Of a stretch of 64,000 nucleotides of DNA, positions 5,277-21,132 are shown one piece after another (the first letter of the stretch is position 1; every line of letters starts with the position of its first letter). The notes under the pieces were generated by a model. It was not told the DNA's origin. It saw only the letters and a program-made list of their open reading frames with translations, and did not search any database. Source of the DNA: Massilia polaris (GTDB lineage Bacteria; Pseudomonadota; Gammaproteobacteria; Burkholderiales; Burkholderiaceae_D). A program made the position numbers and the translations under genes. Where the stretch lies: contig NZ_JABBGG010000002.1 in the NCBI RefSeq assembly GCF_012927275.1, forward strand, positions 248,001 to 312,000, given 5' to 3'.

Positions 5277-6173
5277 TCAGGCGCGCAGGCGCGCCAGCAC
5301 GCCGTCGAGGATATCCAGATCGGCAAAGTCGATGATCATCTGGCCTTTGCCCTTGGCGCCCATCTTGAAGACGACCGGGGTGGCCAGCTTGTCCGACAGC
5401 TCTTCTTCGAGGCGGACGATGTCGCCCGACTTTTCCTTCTGGCGCGCTTCCGCCGGCGGCGCCGACTGTTCTTCCATCGTGCGGGTGACCAGCTTCTCGG
5501 TCTCGCGTACCGACAGGCGCTTGGCGATTACCTGGTTGGCCAGGTTGATCTGGCTGGCCGCGTCGACCGCCAGCAGCGCGCGCGCATGGCCCATGTCGAT
5601 ATCGCCCGCCATCAGCATGGTCTGCACCGGGCCGGCCAGGTTCATCAGGCGCAGCAGGTTCGACACCGCGCTGCGCGAGCGGCCGACCGCGTTGGCCGCC
5701 TGCTCATGCGTGAAGGCGAAATCGGAGATCAGGCGATGAATGCCCTGGGCTTCTTCCAGCGGGTTCAGGTCTTCGCGCTGGATGTTCTCGATCAGCGCCA
5801 TCGCGGCCGCGGCCTGGTCGTCGACGTCGCGCACCAGCACCGGCACTTCTTCCAGCCCTGCCAGCTGCGCCGCGCGGAAACGGCGCTCGCCGGCGATGAT
5901 CTCGTACTTCACCGCGCCGGTGACGCTGTCCTGCCCTACCGGACGCACCAGCACCGGCTGCATGATGCCCTGGGTCTTGATCGACGCGGCCAGTTCGGCC
6001 AGCGCGCCTTCGTCCATGCGGGTGCGCGGCTGATATTTACCGGCCTGCATCTGGCTCAGCGCCAGCACGGATGGCTGGCCCTGTTCGGCGGAGGCGCCGT
6101 TGCCATTGCCGTCAGCGCCGCCAAGCAGTGCGTCGAGGCCGCGGCCGAGGCCTTTGAGTTTTTTGGTAGCCAT
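5277..6173 (-). CDS. parB: Chromosome partitioning protein ParB
   Basis: CTP-dependent DNA clamp that loads at parS and spreads to form the segregation complex. It is 298 residues. The N-terminus MATKKLKGLGRGLDALLGG carries the ParA-interacting segment. The ParB/Srx CTPase domain contains GERRFRAAQLAG (C-motif region) and ENIQREDLNPLEEA. The helix-turn-helix follows (HEQAANAVGRSRSAVSNLLRL), and a C-terminal dimer domain ends the protein. The gene starts 19 bases after parA. Its likely targets, two parS sites, lie at 9750-9804. Confidence 0.97.
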   Translation of the reverse strand: MATKKLKGLGRGLDALLGGADGNGNGASAEQGQPSVLALSQMQAGKYQPRTRMDEGALAELAASIKTQGIMQPVLVRPVGQDSVTGAVKYEIIAGERRFRAAQLAGLEEVPVLVRDVDDQAAAAMALIENIQREDLNPLEEAQGIHRLISDFAFTHEQAANAVGRSRSAVSNLLRLMNLAGPVQTMLMAGDIDMGHARALLAVDAASQINLANQVIAKRLSVRETEKLVTRTMEEQSAPPAEARQKEKSGDIVRLEEELSDKLATPVVFKMGAKGKGQMIIDFADLDILDGVLARLRA

Positions 6174-6192: not shown

Positions 6193-6963
6193 TTACATTG
6201 TCTTGATACGTTTGACCATCTCGGCGCCGAAAGCGATGTACGCCTGCGCGCCTTTCGAGGCGGGGTCAAACACTACGCCAGGGATGCCGTACGACGGCGC
6301 CTCGGCGAGCCGCACATTGCGCGGGATGATGGTCTTGAATACCTTGTCGCCGAAGTGTTCCTCGAGCTGCGCCGAGACCTGCTGCGACAGCGTCATGCGC
6401 GGATCGAACATCACGCGCAGCAGGCCGATGATCTTCAGGTCGGTGTTCAAGTTGGCGTGCACCTTCTTGATCGTGTTGACCAGGTCGGACAGGCCTTCCA
6501 GTGCGTAGTACTCGCACTGCATCGGGATGATCACGCCGTGCGCGGCGCACAGGCCGTTCAGGGTCAGCATCGACAGGGCGGGCGGGCAGTCGATCAGCAC
6601 GAAGTCGTATTCGCTGTCGACGGCCGCCAGCGCATCCTTCAGGCGGCGCTCGCGCTGCTCCAGCTGGACCATTTCGACCTCGGCGCCGGCCAGCTCGCGG
6701 TTGGACGGCAGCACATCGAAACGGCCCGCCTCCGAACGCATGCGCGCGGTGTTGACGTCGGCCTCGCCGAGCAGCACTTCGTAGATCGATGATTTGAGGC
6801 CGGCCTTGTTGATGCCGGCGCCCATTGTCGCGTTGCCTTGAGGGTCAAGGTCGACCAGCAGCACGCGCTGGTCAAGCTTGGCCAGTCCCGCAGCCAGGTT
6901 CACGCTGGTCGTGGTCTTGCCTACCCCGCCCTTTTGGTTTGCAACGCAGAATATCTTTGCCAT
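6193..6963 (-). CDS. parA: Chromosome partitioning ATPase ParA (Soj)
   Basis: Deviant Walker-type ATPase of 256 residues that moves ParB-parS complexes over the nucleoid. It has the KGGVGKTTT motif at residues 11-19, the Walker A' LLVDLDPQGNAT, and Walker B VLIDCPPAL. There is no N-terminal DNA-binding extension, so it belongs to the short chromosomal (Soj) class. It lies between rsmG and parB. Its upstream gap contains AT-rich repeats that could be an autoregulatory operator. Confidence 0.97.
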   Translation of the reverse strand: MAKIFCVANQKGGVGKTTTSVNLAAGLAKLDQRVLLVDLDPQGNATMGAGINKAGLKSSIYEVLLGEADVNTARMRSEAGRFDVLPSNRELAGAEVEMVQLEQRERRLKDALAAVDSEYDFVLIDCPPALSMLTLNGLCAAHGVIIPMQCEYYALEGLSDLVNTIKKVHANLNTDLKIIGLLRVMFDPRMTLSQQVSAQLEEHFGDKVFKTIIPRNVRLAEAPSYGIPGVVFDPASKGAQAYIAFGAEMVKRIKTM

Positions 6964-9749: not shown

Positions 9750-9765
9750 TGTTTCACGTGGAACA
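9750..9765. other. parS centromere site 1
   Basis: TGTTTCACGTGGAACA is the exact reverse complement of the classical 16-base parS sequence bound by chromosomal ParB proteins. It lies in the mnmG upstream region, in the same cluster as parAB. Confidence 0.93.
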
Positions 9766-9788
9766 GTCGAGTGATCGCATCGGCGGTA

Positions 9789-9804
9789 TGTTCCACGTGA
9801 AACA
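9789..9804. other. parS centromere site 2
   Basis: TGTTCCACGTGAAACA is an exact classical parS. It is in mirror orientation to the site at 9750-9765, with 23 bases between them. It ends 10 bases before the stop codon of the TauE/SafE gene. Confidence 0.93.
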
Positions 9805-10579: not shown

Positions 10580-10702
10580 TACCGCTCCAGCACGTCAAAA
10601 GCAATATTGTACGGAAGAACGTTTCGCACTGCCGGCAGCAGGATTTCCTCTTACGGTAGCATCGTGTAAGCTGAACATTCAACGCACCGGAGCCAGAAAT
10701 TC

Positions 10703-11869
10703 ATGACCGAGTTCAAAGCCTTCACCTTCATTACCGTTCCTCATATCGTGTCCGAGCCAGGCAGTGCCCGAGAGCTGGGCAAGCACATTGCCGCACGCTT
10801 CCCGGACGTCCGGCGTGCCTTGATCGTCACCGACCCGGGCTTCCTCCGGACCGGGTTGGTGGAAGCGCCGCGCGCGAGCCTGGAAAAGCAGGGGATAAGC
10901 GTCCAGGTCTTTTCGGACGTGGTGGCGGATCCACCGGAAGGCGTGGTCGTCAGCGCAGTGAATTTTGCACGCGCTCACGACACGGACATCGTGATCGGCC
11001 TGGGTGGCGGCAGCTCGATGGACGTCGCGAAACTGATCGCCGTCCTGGCGGGCAGCGACCAGCCGATTTCAGAAATCTACGGAATAGGGAACGTGAAGGG
11101 CGAGCGCCTTCCGCTGGTACAGGTTCCGACCACCGCAGGCACTGGCTCCGAAGTCACGAACATCGCCATCGTGACGACGGGGGAGACGACCAAAATGGGT
11201 GTGGTCGCGCCGCAGCTATATGCCGACCTCGCCCTCCTTGACGCGGAGTTGACTCTGGGCCTGCCGCCGCTCGTTACAGCGGCAACCGGCATCGATGCGA
11301 TGGTGCATGCGATCGAGGCGTTCACCAGTCGCCACAAAAAGAATCCGATGTCGGACAATCTGGCGCGTCAGGCATTGTCATTACTTTCTGGCAACTTAAT
11401 GACGGCCTGTGAGAACGGTGGAAACCTGCACGCCCGACAGGCGATGCTGCTTGGAGCTTGCTTCGCGGGCCAGGCATTTTCGAATGCCCCGGTCGCCGCG
11501 GTCCATGCACTCGCCTACCCTATCGGCGGAATCTTCCATGTGCCGCACGGTTTGTCCAACTCGCTGGTACTGCCGCATGTGTTGAGGTTCAACTTGCCGG
11601 AAGCAACGAGCCATTACGCGGAACTGGCGTCGGTCGTGGCACCGCATGTCAGCGGGAGCGAAGAGGCGCGGGCGGAGGCGCTGATTGCTGCGATGCAGCA
11701 AGTGGCGCGGATGACCGGGATAGAGACGGCGTTGAGGCAGGTGGGTATAGCGGAAGCGGACCTGGACAGGCTGGCCGATGATGCGATGTTGCAGACAAGG
11801 CTGCTTGGGAATAATCCGAGGGATGTGACGCGGGCGGATGCTTACGCGATCTACGCAGCCGCCCTTTAG
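10703..11869 (+). CDS. Iron-containing alcohol dehydrogenase
   Basis: Group III NAD(P)-dependent dehydrogenase of 388 residues. The nucleotide-binding loop is IGLGGGSSMDVAKLIAVL and PTTAGTGSEVTN follows. The metal ligands are visible as the aspartate in TGIDAMVHAIEAF plus its histidine, and as the two histidines of VHALAYPIGGIFHVPHG. GGAG precedes the ATG. It stands alone, with the TSUP gene diverging on the left and livM converging on the right. The substrate (ethanol, butanol, lactaldehyde or other) is not determined. Confidence 0.88.
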   Translation: MTEFKAFTFITVPHIVSEPGSARELGKHIAARFPDVRRALIVTDPGFLRTGLVEAPRASLEKQGISVQVFSDVVADPPEGVVVSAVNFARAHDTDIVIGLGGGSSMDVAKLIAVLAGSDQPISEIYGIGNVKGERLPLVQVPTTAGTGSEVTNIAIVTTGETTKMGVVAPQLYADLALLDAELTLGLPPLVTAATGIDAMVHAIEAFTSRHKKNPMSDNLARQALSLLSGNLMTACENGGNLHARQAMLLGACFAGQAFSNAPVAAVHALAYPIGGIFHVPHGLSNSLVLPHVLRFNLPEATSHYAELASVVAPHVSGSEEARAEALIAAMQQVARMTGIETALRQVGIAEADLDRLADDAMLQTRLLGNNPRDVTRADAYAIYAAAL

Positions 11870-11875
11870 AAACTC

Positions 11876-11908
11876 GTAGGGCGGATGCGCTTCGCTTATC
11901 CGCCCTAC
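11876..11908. repeat. GTAGGGCGGAT palindromic intergenic element
   Basis: Arms GTAGGGCGGAT and ATCCGCCCTAC (11 pairs) close around an 11-base centre, between the convergent alcohol dehydrogenase and livM genes. The same arms recur at 13839-13942. It may serve as a bidirectional transcription stop. Confidence 0.75.
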
Positions 11909-11921
11909 TTTTCCTTGCCGC

Positions 11922-18488: not shown

Positions 18489-19526
18489 CTACTCGGTTCG
18501 CATCTCTGCTATCAGCGTTTGCATCAGTTTCGCCGCCGGCATGGCCCGCGCGCGCCGCACTTCCGCTCCTGCCCACAACGACATCAGTTCGGTATCACCC
18601 TTGGCGGAAGCTGCCGCCCGGATGCTTGTTGTTAATGCATTTTGTACAGGATACGCCGGAAGTTGTTTCTCAACATCTACTAATTGCTTCATGAAACGAT
18701 TTTCAAGGCCGCGGGCGTAGCGCCCGGAGAAAGCACGGGTCAGCCGGGTGGGTGTATCGCCCGCATTGATGAGGCGGAATTTATATTCGGGTGAAATGCC
18801 CGTTTCGTCGCAGACCAGGAAGGCGGTGCCCATCTGGACTGCTGTCGCCCCTGCCGCGAGGGCTTCGTTGATGTCGATGCCGGTCATGATCCCGCCCGCG
18901 GCGATCACCGGAATCTCGACGGCCCGCGCAACCTTTGGCCAGAGGACCCGTGCTTCAAGCGTCGCATCCTCCTGGGCGCCGATGAACGTGCCGCGATGTC
19001 CGCCTGCTTCGACACCCGATGCGATCACGGCATCGGCTCCAACCTCTTCCCAGGCCTCGGCTTCTTCAACCGTCGTCACGGTGCCGATCACAAAGATGCC
19101 GGCGTCATGCAAGCGCTCGACCTGGGTGGCCGTGAGAATGTCGAAGGTAAAACTGGCGGCCGCGGGACGCAGCTCGATCAAGGTGTCGAACTGGGCTTCG
19201 AAGTCCTGGCACCACTGCGCAGGCGTCGGCAGCTCGGTCCAGCCCAGGCCTTCCCAAATGGGGCGCATCAGTTCTGCGGCCCGGTCGATTTCTTCCCGGC
19301 TTGGTTGCGGTGTCTTCAGGACGAACAGGTTAATCAGGAAAGGCCGGTCGGTCAGCTGCCGGACTCTGGCGGCCTGATCGCGAATGGCATCTGGCGCGAG
19401 CAGCGAACCAGGCAATGAACCCAGTCCACCAGCGTTCGATACCGCTGCGATAAGTTCAGGTGTGCAAGAACCGCCTGCCATCGGCCCCTGGATGATCGGA
19501 AACTTGAACAGCGACTGCAAATCCAT
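18489..19526 (-). CDS. Nitronate monooxygenase family protein
   Basis: FMN-dependent TIM-barrel enzyme of 345 residues that oxidises alkyl nitronates such as propionate-3-nitronate. It has the N-terminal IIQGPMAGG loop and the class I motif SGVEAGGHRGTF near residue 175, followed by VIAAGGIMTG. It is the first gene of a two-gene unit with the GMC oxidoreductase. Its start lies at the edge of the DnaA-box-rich region. Confidence 0.88.
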   Translation of the reverse strand: MDLQSLFKFPIIQGPMAGGSCTPELIAAVSNAGGLGSLPGSLLAPDAIRDQAARVRQLTDRPFLINLFVLKTPQPSREEIDRAAELMRPIWEGLGWTELPTPAQWCQDFEAQFDTLIELRPAAASFTFDILTATQVERLHDAGIFVIGTVTTVEEAEAWEEVGADAVIASGVEAGGHRGTFIGAQEDATLEARVLWPKVARAVEIPVIAAGGIMTGIDINEALAAGATAVQMGTAFLVCDETGISPEYKFRLINAGDTPTRLTRAFSGRYARGLENRFMKQLVDVEKQLPAYPVQNALTTSIRAAASAKGDTELMSLWAGAEVRRARAMPAAKLMQTLIAEMRTE

Positions 19527-19755
19527 GGCTCCTCCCCCGTCTGAAATGCCAGATTAACAGAAGCTTTGGCGCTTGGGCAGGGGGGTGGCCGGGCAGGGTG
19601 TGGATAACTCTATGAATATCCACAGGTACGGTTTGTGGATAAGCCCAACTTTATACACAAGCTGATTTTTGTCCAGAATTGGTACCAGCCACATACAGAG
19701 TTGGCAACCGGCTTATAAAATTCGTAAACGCATGATTGTAGAGCGAATTATGGCC

Positions 19756-19817
19756 TTATCCACAGGAAAGTGCCCGCGTTAACTATTACTACTATGCTTG
19801 TATACATACCTTTTAAG
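19756..19817 (+). repeat. Candidate basal unwinding element, copy 1
   Basis: An exact DnaA box (19756-19764) is followed by a GC-richer spacer and then AACTATTACTACTATG, after which TTGTATACATAC opens an AT-rich stretch. The complement of TACTACTA reads 3'-GAT-5' repeats, as in DnaA-trios. It shares a long segment with copy 2 at 20183-20250. Confidence 0.6.
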
Positions 19818-19989
19818 TAAACAAGAAACGAAAAGAAAACCCTCGCGGCGTCGCCTGCGATGCAAAAACCACACACCAGGTCTCGTTTTGAAAAACTTGG
19901 GGTAAAAGAAATTTTCTGATGGCCTGAAAAAAAACGAAGGCTCGTGTTTTTCTGGACGCTCGAACTTTGCAAGCGCACAGGTCAACTTG

Positions 19990-20019
19990 AAAAACAAAAA
20001 ACCGGCGCGTAGCGCCGGT
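19990..20019 (-). terminator. Intrinsic terminator reading leftward within the origin region
   Basis: On the minus strand ACCGGCGC-tac-GCGCCGGT (8 perfect pairs, 20001-20019) is followed by TTTTTTGTTTTTC. No coding gene lies upstream of it on that strand, so it would end a non-coding transcript starting in roughly 20020-20330, or shield the left part of the origin from transcription. Confidence 0.7.
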
Positions 20020-20182
20020 CCTTGTGTGGATAAGTCACTGCATATCCACAGGATGAGATGTGCAAAAGCGACCTGCTTGTGCAAAACTCGGTTTTTATCC
20101 ACCATCCGTCCTTGCTAGATACAATCATTGTCCAGCAGTTTACAAATCGCCTAAGTCGATGATCGTAAAGATGTAAACAGAC

Positions 20183-20250
20183 TTATCCACAAAAATAAGC
20201 CTCGTTTACTACTACTACTATTTTTGTATACATACTTACTATGTAAACCA
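20183..20250 (+). repeat. Candidate basal unwinding element, copy 2
   Basis: An exact DnaA box (20183-20191) is followed after 14 bases by TTTACTACTACTACTATTTT and then TTGTATACATACTTAC and ATGTAAAC. This copy has four uninterrupted TAC triplets. It has the same orientation as copy 1, about 427 bases away. Confidence 0.65.
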
Positions 20251-20340
20251 AAAGAACAGCGGAAGTTCGGGGATAACCCCTGCACAGGCCACTGTTCACC
20301 GCAAAACCCCGTCTTCCAGACTGAAAAACACGGACAAAAT

Positions 20341-21132
20341 ATGCGTTTAGGTATCATCAGCGCCCTCCACGAAGAACAGCAGGGCCTAGTGGAAGCCATG
20401 CAAGGGGCCTCCAGGCTCATCCATGGCATGCGGGACTACACCCAGGGGAGACTCTTTGGAATCGACGCTGTGTGCGTCCTGTCGCGTATTGGGAAGGTTG
20501 CAGCAGCCACTACCGCCACCATGCTTGTGGAGAAGTTCGGAGTTACCCACATCCTGTTTACCGGGGTTGCAGGTGCAGGAGACGCACGGGTGGCTGTTGG
20601 CGACATCGTGGTGGCCGATTCACTGGTCCAGTACGACATGGATGCCAGTCCGCTGTTTCCAAAGTTTGAAGTGCCGCTGACAGGCTTGTCGCACTTCCCT
20701 TCCGATGTACACATCAGCAATGTGGTCGCCGATGCAGCACATCAGTTCCTGGCGCATGACTTCGAAGAATCCATCGACGACAAGGAACGCGCGGTATTCC
20801 GCCTTGAGCGCCCACGGGTTCACCGTGGACTCATCGGAAGCGGTGATCGCTTTGTCAGCTGCGGCGTGCACATGTCGCAGCTCAACGAATCTTTATCGGG
20901 TTTGCTGGCTGTGGAAATGGAGGGGGCGGCGGTCGCCCAGGTCTGCTTCGAGCTGGGCGTGCCATTTGCTGTCATCCGGACGATTTCGGACAACGCAAAC
21001 GAAGACGCGGCCACCGATTTCATGCGTTTCGTGAAATCGGTAGCCGCGCGTTATGCGTTCCATATCGTCCGGCGCTACTGCCAGACGACGTACGGAGGTT
21101 ATCAGCCAAGCATGGAGTCTGCCGGCGCGTAG
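20341..21132 (+). CDS. mtnN: 5'-methylthioadenosine/S-adenosylhomocysteine nucleosidase
   Basis: Hydrolyses methylthioadenosine and S-adenosylhomocysteine to adenine and the thioribose product, recycling methionine and removing methylation inhibitors. The 263-residue product starts [13 protein letters not shown], with the catalytic glutamate region at the N-terminus. [16 protein letters not shown] and the general-acid motif IRTISDNAN follow near residues 200-225. The ATG at 20341 was chosen because upstream in-frame codons run into the origin region. Its 3' end overlaps the convergent ald gene by about 31 bases. Confidence 0.88.

Follow-up and report, generated by a model that had tools for sequence, protein, structure and literature searches.

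The gene-free gap between a nitronate monooxygenase (NMO) family gene and mtnN in Massilia polaris is very probably the chromosomal origin of replication (oriC), judging from its sequence content and its counterparts in relatives, and it would represent a tandem, multimodule variant that lies away from dnaA. An origin away from dnaA had been proposed in the initial annotation, and the proposal gains strength from the combined box and DnaA-trio architecture and from conservation in the family at distances from dnaA that vary from ~6 to 719 kb, and it is further borne out by a skew switch in one relative (G017) and by the orientation of rRNA operons in another (G033). The window, that is, the whole stretch of DNA analyzed, comprises 64,000 nucleotides and contains the following features.

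5277 to 6173, minus strand: parB
6193 to 6963, minus strand: parA-like gene
9750 to 9804, plus strand: near-exact parS pair, with sites at 9750 and 9789, 9.8 kb from module 1
18489 to 19526, minus strand: NMO family gene (PF03060), left flank of the gap
19527 to 20340: gap without genes, between the NMO start (19526) and the mtnN start (20341)
19588 to 19832, plus strand: candidate origin module 1 (class "first"), with reverse boxes at 19599 to 19607 and 19634 to 19642, inner sites ATATCCACA at 19616 to 19624 and TTATACACA at 19651 to 19659, and the forward box at 19756 to 19764
19783 to 19794, plus strand: DnaA-trio run of module 1, CTATTACTACTA, 18 nt past the forward box
19795 to 19832, plus strand: AT-rich tract of module 1, the presumed melting tract, with TGTATACATAC and GTAAAC
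20014 to 20258, plus strand: candidate origin module 2 (class "last"), with the reverse box at 20025 to 20033, inner sites ATATCCACA at 20042 to 20050, TTTTGCACA at 20059 to 20067 and 20078 to 20086 (minus strand), and TTATCCACC at 20095 to 20103, and the forward box at 20183 to 20191
20206 to 20220, plus strand: DnaA-trio run of module 2, TTACTACTACTACTA, 14 nt past the forward box
20221 to 20258, plus strand: AT-rich tract of module 2, the presumed melting tract, with TGTATACATAC and GTAAAC
20341 to 21132, plus strand: mtnN, MTA/SAH nucleosidase, right flank of the gap

The gap carries five exact TTATCCACA DnaA boxes, at 19599 (-), 19634 (-), 19756 (+), 20025 (-), and 20183 (+), which together span 593 bp (19599 to 20191). 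Beyond the exact boxes, the pattern TTWTNCACA fits at 19651 (+), 20059 (-), and 20078 (-), and additional sites with one mismatch to the DnaA box are present at 19616, 20042, and 20095; a recount recovered the same five, three, and three sites that had been reported initially. The claim that this density is unique in the window also stands, with all eight TTWTNCACA sites of the 64 kb falling inside the cluster, compared with 2.17 sites on average and at most 6 in 100 shuffles of the window. The DNA is gene free, as described, but AT rich only relative to its surroundings, the AT content being 0.55 in the gap and the surroundings having ~60% GC. The M. polaris genome (G000) contains 21 exact boxes in its 4.52 Mb, 5 of which lie within the 593 bp of the cluster. 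Nowhere else in this genome do five exact boxes occur within 600 bp, the runner-up being a group of three (C28:97868 to 98187), and the Poisson expectation for a group such as that in the gap is ~4e-11, indicating a clustering far above chance. The MtnN protein of the window matches those of M. agrisoli and M. soli at 95% and 94%, respectively, in a comparison from which records of the M. polaris genome itself may be absent.

What the initial annotation overlooked is the tandem structure of the cluster, a duplication whose diverged copies repeat at 426 bp and carry DnaA-trio runs. The two diverged direct repeats, 426 bp apart, have the same order of elements, i.e., a reverse box, ATATCCACA starting at +17 bp, weaker boxes, a forward box, trios, and an AT-rich tract, and the distance from the reverse to the forward box is 157 to 158 bp. 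The AT content is 0.74 over positions 19780 to 19832 in module 1 and 0.76 over positions 20205 to 20258 in module 2. The DnaA box, the spacer, and the 3'-GAT-5' trios correspond to the published parts of the basal unwinding system (BUS), for which the spacer between box and trios was searched within a limit of 0 to 16 nt and peaked at 10 to 13 nt (PMC8287927); the spacer of module 2 (14 nt) is inside this limit, and that of module 1 (18 nt) is two nucleotides beyond it. As in the oriC of Bacillus subtilis with its BUS, a forward box is separated by a short spacer from 3'-GAT-5' trios, which are repeated and read CTA on the top strand, and these lead into an AT-rich tract; upstream boxes are present as well (PMC6669920, PMC8287927, PMC10721633). 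Unlike in B. subtilis, the whole unit occurs twice here, and in many relatives two to three times, the copies being arranged in tandem and in the same direction, with a fixed inverted box frame of 157 to 159 bp and away from dnaA.

This anatomy suggests a mode of initiation in which DnaA would bind the left box group (the reverse box plus ATATCCACA), the weaker inner boxes, and the forward box, which would be held 157 to 158 bp, or ~15 helical turns, from the reverse box on the left. From the forward box, DnaA-ATP would then extend onto the adjoining DnaA-trios, and, in keeping with the BUS literature, the AT-rich tract past the trios would be opened and the helicase loaded there. The left box group, 15 turns off, may deliver or stabilize DnaA, a role that has been proposed for the upstream boxes of B. 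subtilis (PMC6669920), whose bipartite origin has two halves that are both essential in vivo, only one of them being required for unwinding in vitro (PMC6669920). The bipartite oriC of Helicobacter pylori likewise has more than one box-bearing part (PMC8235120, PMC6669920), of which one part only is required for unwinding in vitro (PMC6669920), whereas both modules carry trios here.

An exact parS pair and parAB had been placed 10 to 14 kb from the cluster in the initial annotation. Their nearness was borne out, both parS and parAB lying within 15 kb of the gap, a usual situation near an origin, but the parS sites are not exact, each having one mismatch to the 16-bp consensus.

Matches to the cluster DNA were obtained in 27 of 60 genomes: that of M. 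polaris itself, all 16 of the same genus, and 10 others of the family. The exact spaced pair of boxes was found in 199 of 294 family genomes and in 26 of 44 genera, with one to three pairs per positive genome, and the backwards control for the spaced pair gave 0 in every row listed of this family genome search. Among 120 genomes of the order, the pair was present in three of the four family members and in 1 of the 116 genomes outside the family; this sole pair outside the family (L281, in G385) lies in a matched stretch with several more boxes. Eighty named loci were fetched, of which 56 were used for spacing and 29 for a module tree; the 24 that were omitted comprised 23 in which the 3 kb preceding mtnN contain no exact box and one locus (L216) with 8. 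In the 56 loci, the spacing is 157, 158, or 159 bp in 82 of the 96 exact reverse-to-forward pairs that are less than 400 bp apart. L193 is without a spaced pair, and 53 loci have the pair followed by GTT[AT]AC, which served as the working mark of a module. When one mismatch per box was allowed, 126 pairs at 156 to 160 bp were obtained, 117 of which are followed by GTT[AT]AC. An unbroken run of at least three [CT]TA triplets occurs in 64 of these 117 modules, and one of at least two occurs in 107, indicating that the trio run is often broken in relatives; the two nearest named species likewise show such a break in their module 2.

The modules also tend to have the same neighbors. Thirty module loci, taken from 27 genomes, were inspected over flanks of ~1.5 kb: NMO is beside the module in 20 and mtnN in 21, and 27 have at least one of betA, NMO, and mtnN there; none of the three genes was found within 1.5 kb of the modules of G017 (locus L035). 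In several Duganella genomes (L185, L186, L188, L194, L196 to L198, and L200), two modules lie ~3 kb apart upstream of mtnN, so that genes may lie inside the origin. Other box-rich surroundings of mtnN were observed in Undibacterium terreum (L213), with 26 exact boxes in 20.7 kb, and in a betaproteobacterial metagenome-assembled genome (MAG) (L216), with 16 exact boxes in 8.4 kb. In L215, another of the 24 omitted loci, a group of five boxes lies 8.8 kb on the other side of mtnN.

The module tree, which included 75 modules from the window and the 29 named loci, bears on the age of the duplication. In every record named Massilia, Janthinobacterium, Pseudoduganella, or Duganella, the leftmost module belongs to one group (local support, 0.90; 28 members), which also includes two M. 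psychrophila modules and one Oxalobacteraceae MAG module. The rightmost modules sit outside this group. Those of Duganella join the Janthinobacterium modules of the middle class, as does the leftmost module of the Burkholderiaceae MAG ES-bin-46. When a module is matched to its nearest counterpart in a different genus, the two have the same position class in 57 of 58 cases (first or last; middle modules were not counted). Because the first and last copies are orthologous across genera, the duplication is old, and it may predate the split of Massilia, Janthinobacterium, and Duganella, the first, middle, and last classes having perhaps been kept distinct since. The inner ATATCCACA, which was not used in picking modules, has a mean majority share of 0.99, compared with 0.63 for columns outside the boxes and trios; the conservation of the outer boxes and of GTT[AT]AC is not evidence, because both were used in picking modules. 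The two same-direction unwinding modules would derive from one ancient duplication, and their long separate retention argues against simple redundancy. Tentatively, the oriC of the family might be an array of two to three complete unwinding modules, each in a 15-turn frame of 157 to 159 bp, which divide the work, and it could then count as a multisite bacterial origin, as opposed to a single melting site to which accessory boxes are added. The division, itself a possibility that we put forward with some reserve, might consist of separate helicase-loading sites for each fork or of separate responses to DnaA levels, for example.

The initial annotation had remarked on the absence of dnaA, dnaN, and gyrB next to the cluster, and indeed, the dnaA-dnaN-gyrB group lies 235 kb away on the same contig (C12), with the modules at 268 kb and dnaA at 504 kb. 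An rnpA-like gene is also near this group, and the dnaA region is flanked by an IS110 transposase gene and, on the opposite side, by a recombinase-like gene that scores below the curated cutoff (L004:148 to 1284 and 10634 to 11914), which would fit a rearranged region around dnaA. The arrangement had been called nonstandard, which is true relative to the textbook but not within the family, where separation from dnaA is common. The distance between the modules and dnaA is ~6 kb in G163, G234, G263, and G292; 19 kb in G072; 31 to 46 kb in G029, G030, and G034; 48 to 70 kb in G067, G092, G132, G147, G152, G164, G185, and G243; 235 to 418 kb, on one contig, in Massilia (G000, G003, G005, G006, G009, G011, and G012); 345 kb in G033; and 719 kb in G017, with a closed circle assumed for G017, G067, G152, G163, G164, G185, G234, and G292. 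The four genomes with modules ~6 kb from dnaA are a helpful comparison set. The simplest account, in which the order of change is not read from a tree, is that dnaA moved and the modules kept their neighbors; dnaA-dnaN-gyrB would have been parted from the origin by rearrangement in Massilia-type lineages. The flanks of dnaA, where a competing box cluster might have been expected, have none: the dnaA loci, read for up to 1.5 kb in either direction, contain 0 to 3 exact boxes in all 33 genomes, 9 of these loci being cut at a contig start with the upstream side unread. In three outgroups from the order that were meant as positive controls for an origin at dnaA (G039, G049, and G056), 1, 1, and 0 exact boxes, respectively, were found at dnaA, the last locus being cut by a contig start, and a box cluster at dnaA was thus lacking in G039 and G049 as well.

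Strand signals separate the modules from dnaA in two genomes. In G017, for which 20 stretches totaling 400 kb were sampled with the modules at the right end of the seventh, GC skew is negative in 7/7 stretches up to and including the module stretch and positive in 12/13 beyond it. The best split is at 5.415 Mb (support, 5.410 to 5.420 Mb) and the modules are at 5.4175 to 5.4180 Mb; they are 1.3 lnL units under the best split, and dnaA is 17.0 units under it, so dnaA is excluded as the origin in this genome. The motif polarity of G017 is weak, and its gene-orientation bias favors dnaA (0.62, versus 0.54 for the modules). In G033, the interval from the modules (1.854 Mb) to dnaA (2.2006 Mb) contains two of the seven rRNA operons (2.056 and 2.075 Mb), both on the plus strand, and they are codirectional with replication only if it starts at the modules, because a start at dnaA would make both head-on. 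The rRNA operons all fit the leading strand about the modules in G006, G009, G011, G012, G017, and G033, as do all of the placeable ones (three of five) in G030; the single operon of G000 is on another contig. G033 is the only one of the eight genomes in which rRNA orientation distinguishes the modules from dnaA.

The strand signals of Massilia are weak and conflicting and were therefore not used for the M. polaris genome, and several of the results count against an origin exactly at the modules. The measures run were GC skew, TA skew, fourfold-site skew, GGGNAGGG polarity, and a three-motif set, which is not wholly independent because it was learned on far stretches sorted by assumed arms. 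The skew minimum at the gap that the initial annotation had looked for did not appear in M. polaris: GC skew on C12 has no switch here (z = 0.0 at the modules) and leans weakly to the dnaA side, preferring 312 to 489 kb by just 2.3 lnL units over no switch. Cumulative GGGNAGGG reaches its minimum at 431 kb of C12 and, in G012, at 1.532 Mb; the minimum of G011, at 2.221 Mb, adjoins dnaA (2.2155 Mb). When gene direction is taken into account, GGGNAGGG prefers 243 to 444 kb in G000 (modules, -1.7; dnaA, -5.9). In G011, GGGNAGGG is slightly for dnaA (-3.3, versus -4.4 for the modules), and GC skew is for the modules (-1.3, versus -2.9 for dnaA). In G012, GC skew prefers 1.35 to 1.48 Mb (modules, -7.2; dnaA, -2.3), and three-motif polarity prefers 1.515 to 1.865 Mb (modules, -0.9; dnaA, -7.4). 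Between the modules and dnaA, the forward/reverse counts of GGGNAGGG are 5/6 in G000, 11/18 in G011, and 20/24 in G012. Fourfold-site skew corrected for gene strand was null in all four genomes, including G017, and the leading-strand share of genes on C12, 0.55 for the modules and 0.57 for dnaA, does not decide between them.

Whole-genome lists of exact boxes place the modules among the other box groups. The modules are the group with the most exact boxes in G000, G006, G009, G012, and G033, and another group has as many boxes as they do in G011 (three) and in G017 (four), the modules being the tighter group in G017. The exception is G030, in which the module has two exact boxes and a site at 3.359 Mb, 37 kb away, has three within 534 bp. 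The stretch G030:C1:3359128 to 3363932 lies on the side of the module that faces away from dnaA, and its 4.8 kb contain five exact boxes, all on the same strand. In M. polaris, C28:97537 to 98187 (L005:7537 to 8187), upstream of a MotA/TolQ/ExbB family gene, has three exact boxes in one orientation, 139 and 172 bp apart, and several near boxes, and it may be a site of DnaA titration or control; G006, G009, G011, G012, and G033 likewise have groups of three or four boxes on one strand. Two exact and several near boxes lie between URO-D family and priA-like (primosome helicase) genes at 425.9 to 426.5 kb in C12 (L006:7903 to 8489). In addition, a uvrD-like helicase gene on C1 is bracketed by two pairs of boxes (L007:2034 to 2054 and 5431 to 5451) that are separated by 3.4 kb; the boxes of a pair are 12 bp apart, one pair being exact and the other near, and exact pairs 3.4 to 3.6 kb apart are also found in G006, G009, and G012.

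Box clusters without origin function exist, such as datA and DARS of Escherichia coli, and the gap might be a comparable titration or control site, with the true origin on the dnaA side. The gap resembles datA and DARS in being a DnaA-box cluster away from dnaA, and the skew and polarity of Massilia are compatible with the dnaA side, to which the GC skew of G012 and the GGGNAGGG minimum of G011 lean. This alternative, already raised in the initial annotation, is unlikely, as a titration site is defined as a box cluster without an unwinding tract, and a trio-bearing melting tract is not part of the definition of datA or DARS, whereas the locus here has two, with trio runs and AT-rich tracts after the forward boxes of both modules. 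It is also opposed by the few exact boxes at the dnaA loci, by the neighbors that the module keeps while its distance from dnaA changes, and by the rejection of dnaA by G017 skew and G033 rRNA orientation, and the same-strand C28 group resembles a titration site more closely. Two active origins, one on the dnaA side and one in the gap, both of them used, would explain the mixed GGGNAGGG polarity between modules and dnaA in Massilia (G000, G011, and G012), but no box cluster adjoins dnaA, the mean GC skew of G017 is positive from the modules through dnaA, and past rearrangements or a weak near-origin signal are simpler causes of mixed polarity, all of which makes this explanation very improbable. 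DnaA can regulate promoters, and the gap does lie between divergent genes, but a DnaA-regulated promoter region of NMO and mtnN that has no origin function is scarcely credible given the modules ~3 kb apart in Duganella, the G017 modules without these genes or betA within 1.5 kb, and a fixed spacing of 157 to 159 bp with trios that is unexpected of promoters.

A box cluster far from dnaA and dnaN has also been predicted as the oriC of Synechococcus lividus PCC 6715 (DoriC 10.0, PMC6323995); the tandem origin proposed here differs in recurring across a family, with a measured range of distances and a conserved multimodule anatomy. For two members of the family, Janthinobacterium sp. strain HH01 (PMC3566124) and Herbaspirillum seropedicae (PMC3093359), the origin was assigned by skew together with the positions of dnaA, dnaN, and gyrB, and for H. 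seropedicae, the possible locations named were dnaA-dnaN and the upstream side of dnaA, which was found to carry DnaA-binding sequences (PMC3093359). Eight closed-looking genomes of the family begin at dnaA. No description of the arrangement in this family was found among the titles and abstract openings of open-license PubMed Central articles, and an automatic DoriC prediction of this site may exist.

If the origin does lie at the modules, origin-to-terminus analyses in Massilia-type genera would be off by hundreds of kilobases. The family would also offer a natural series of distances, from ~6 to 719 kb, for asking what follows when dnaA leaves the origin, and the retained duplicate melting modules would make it testable why an origin keeps two or three of them.
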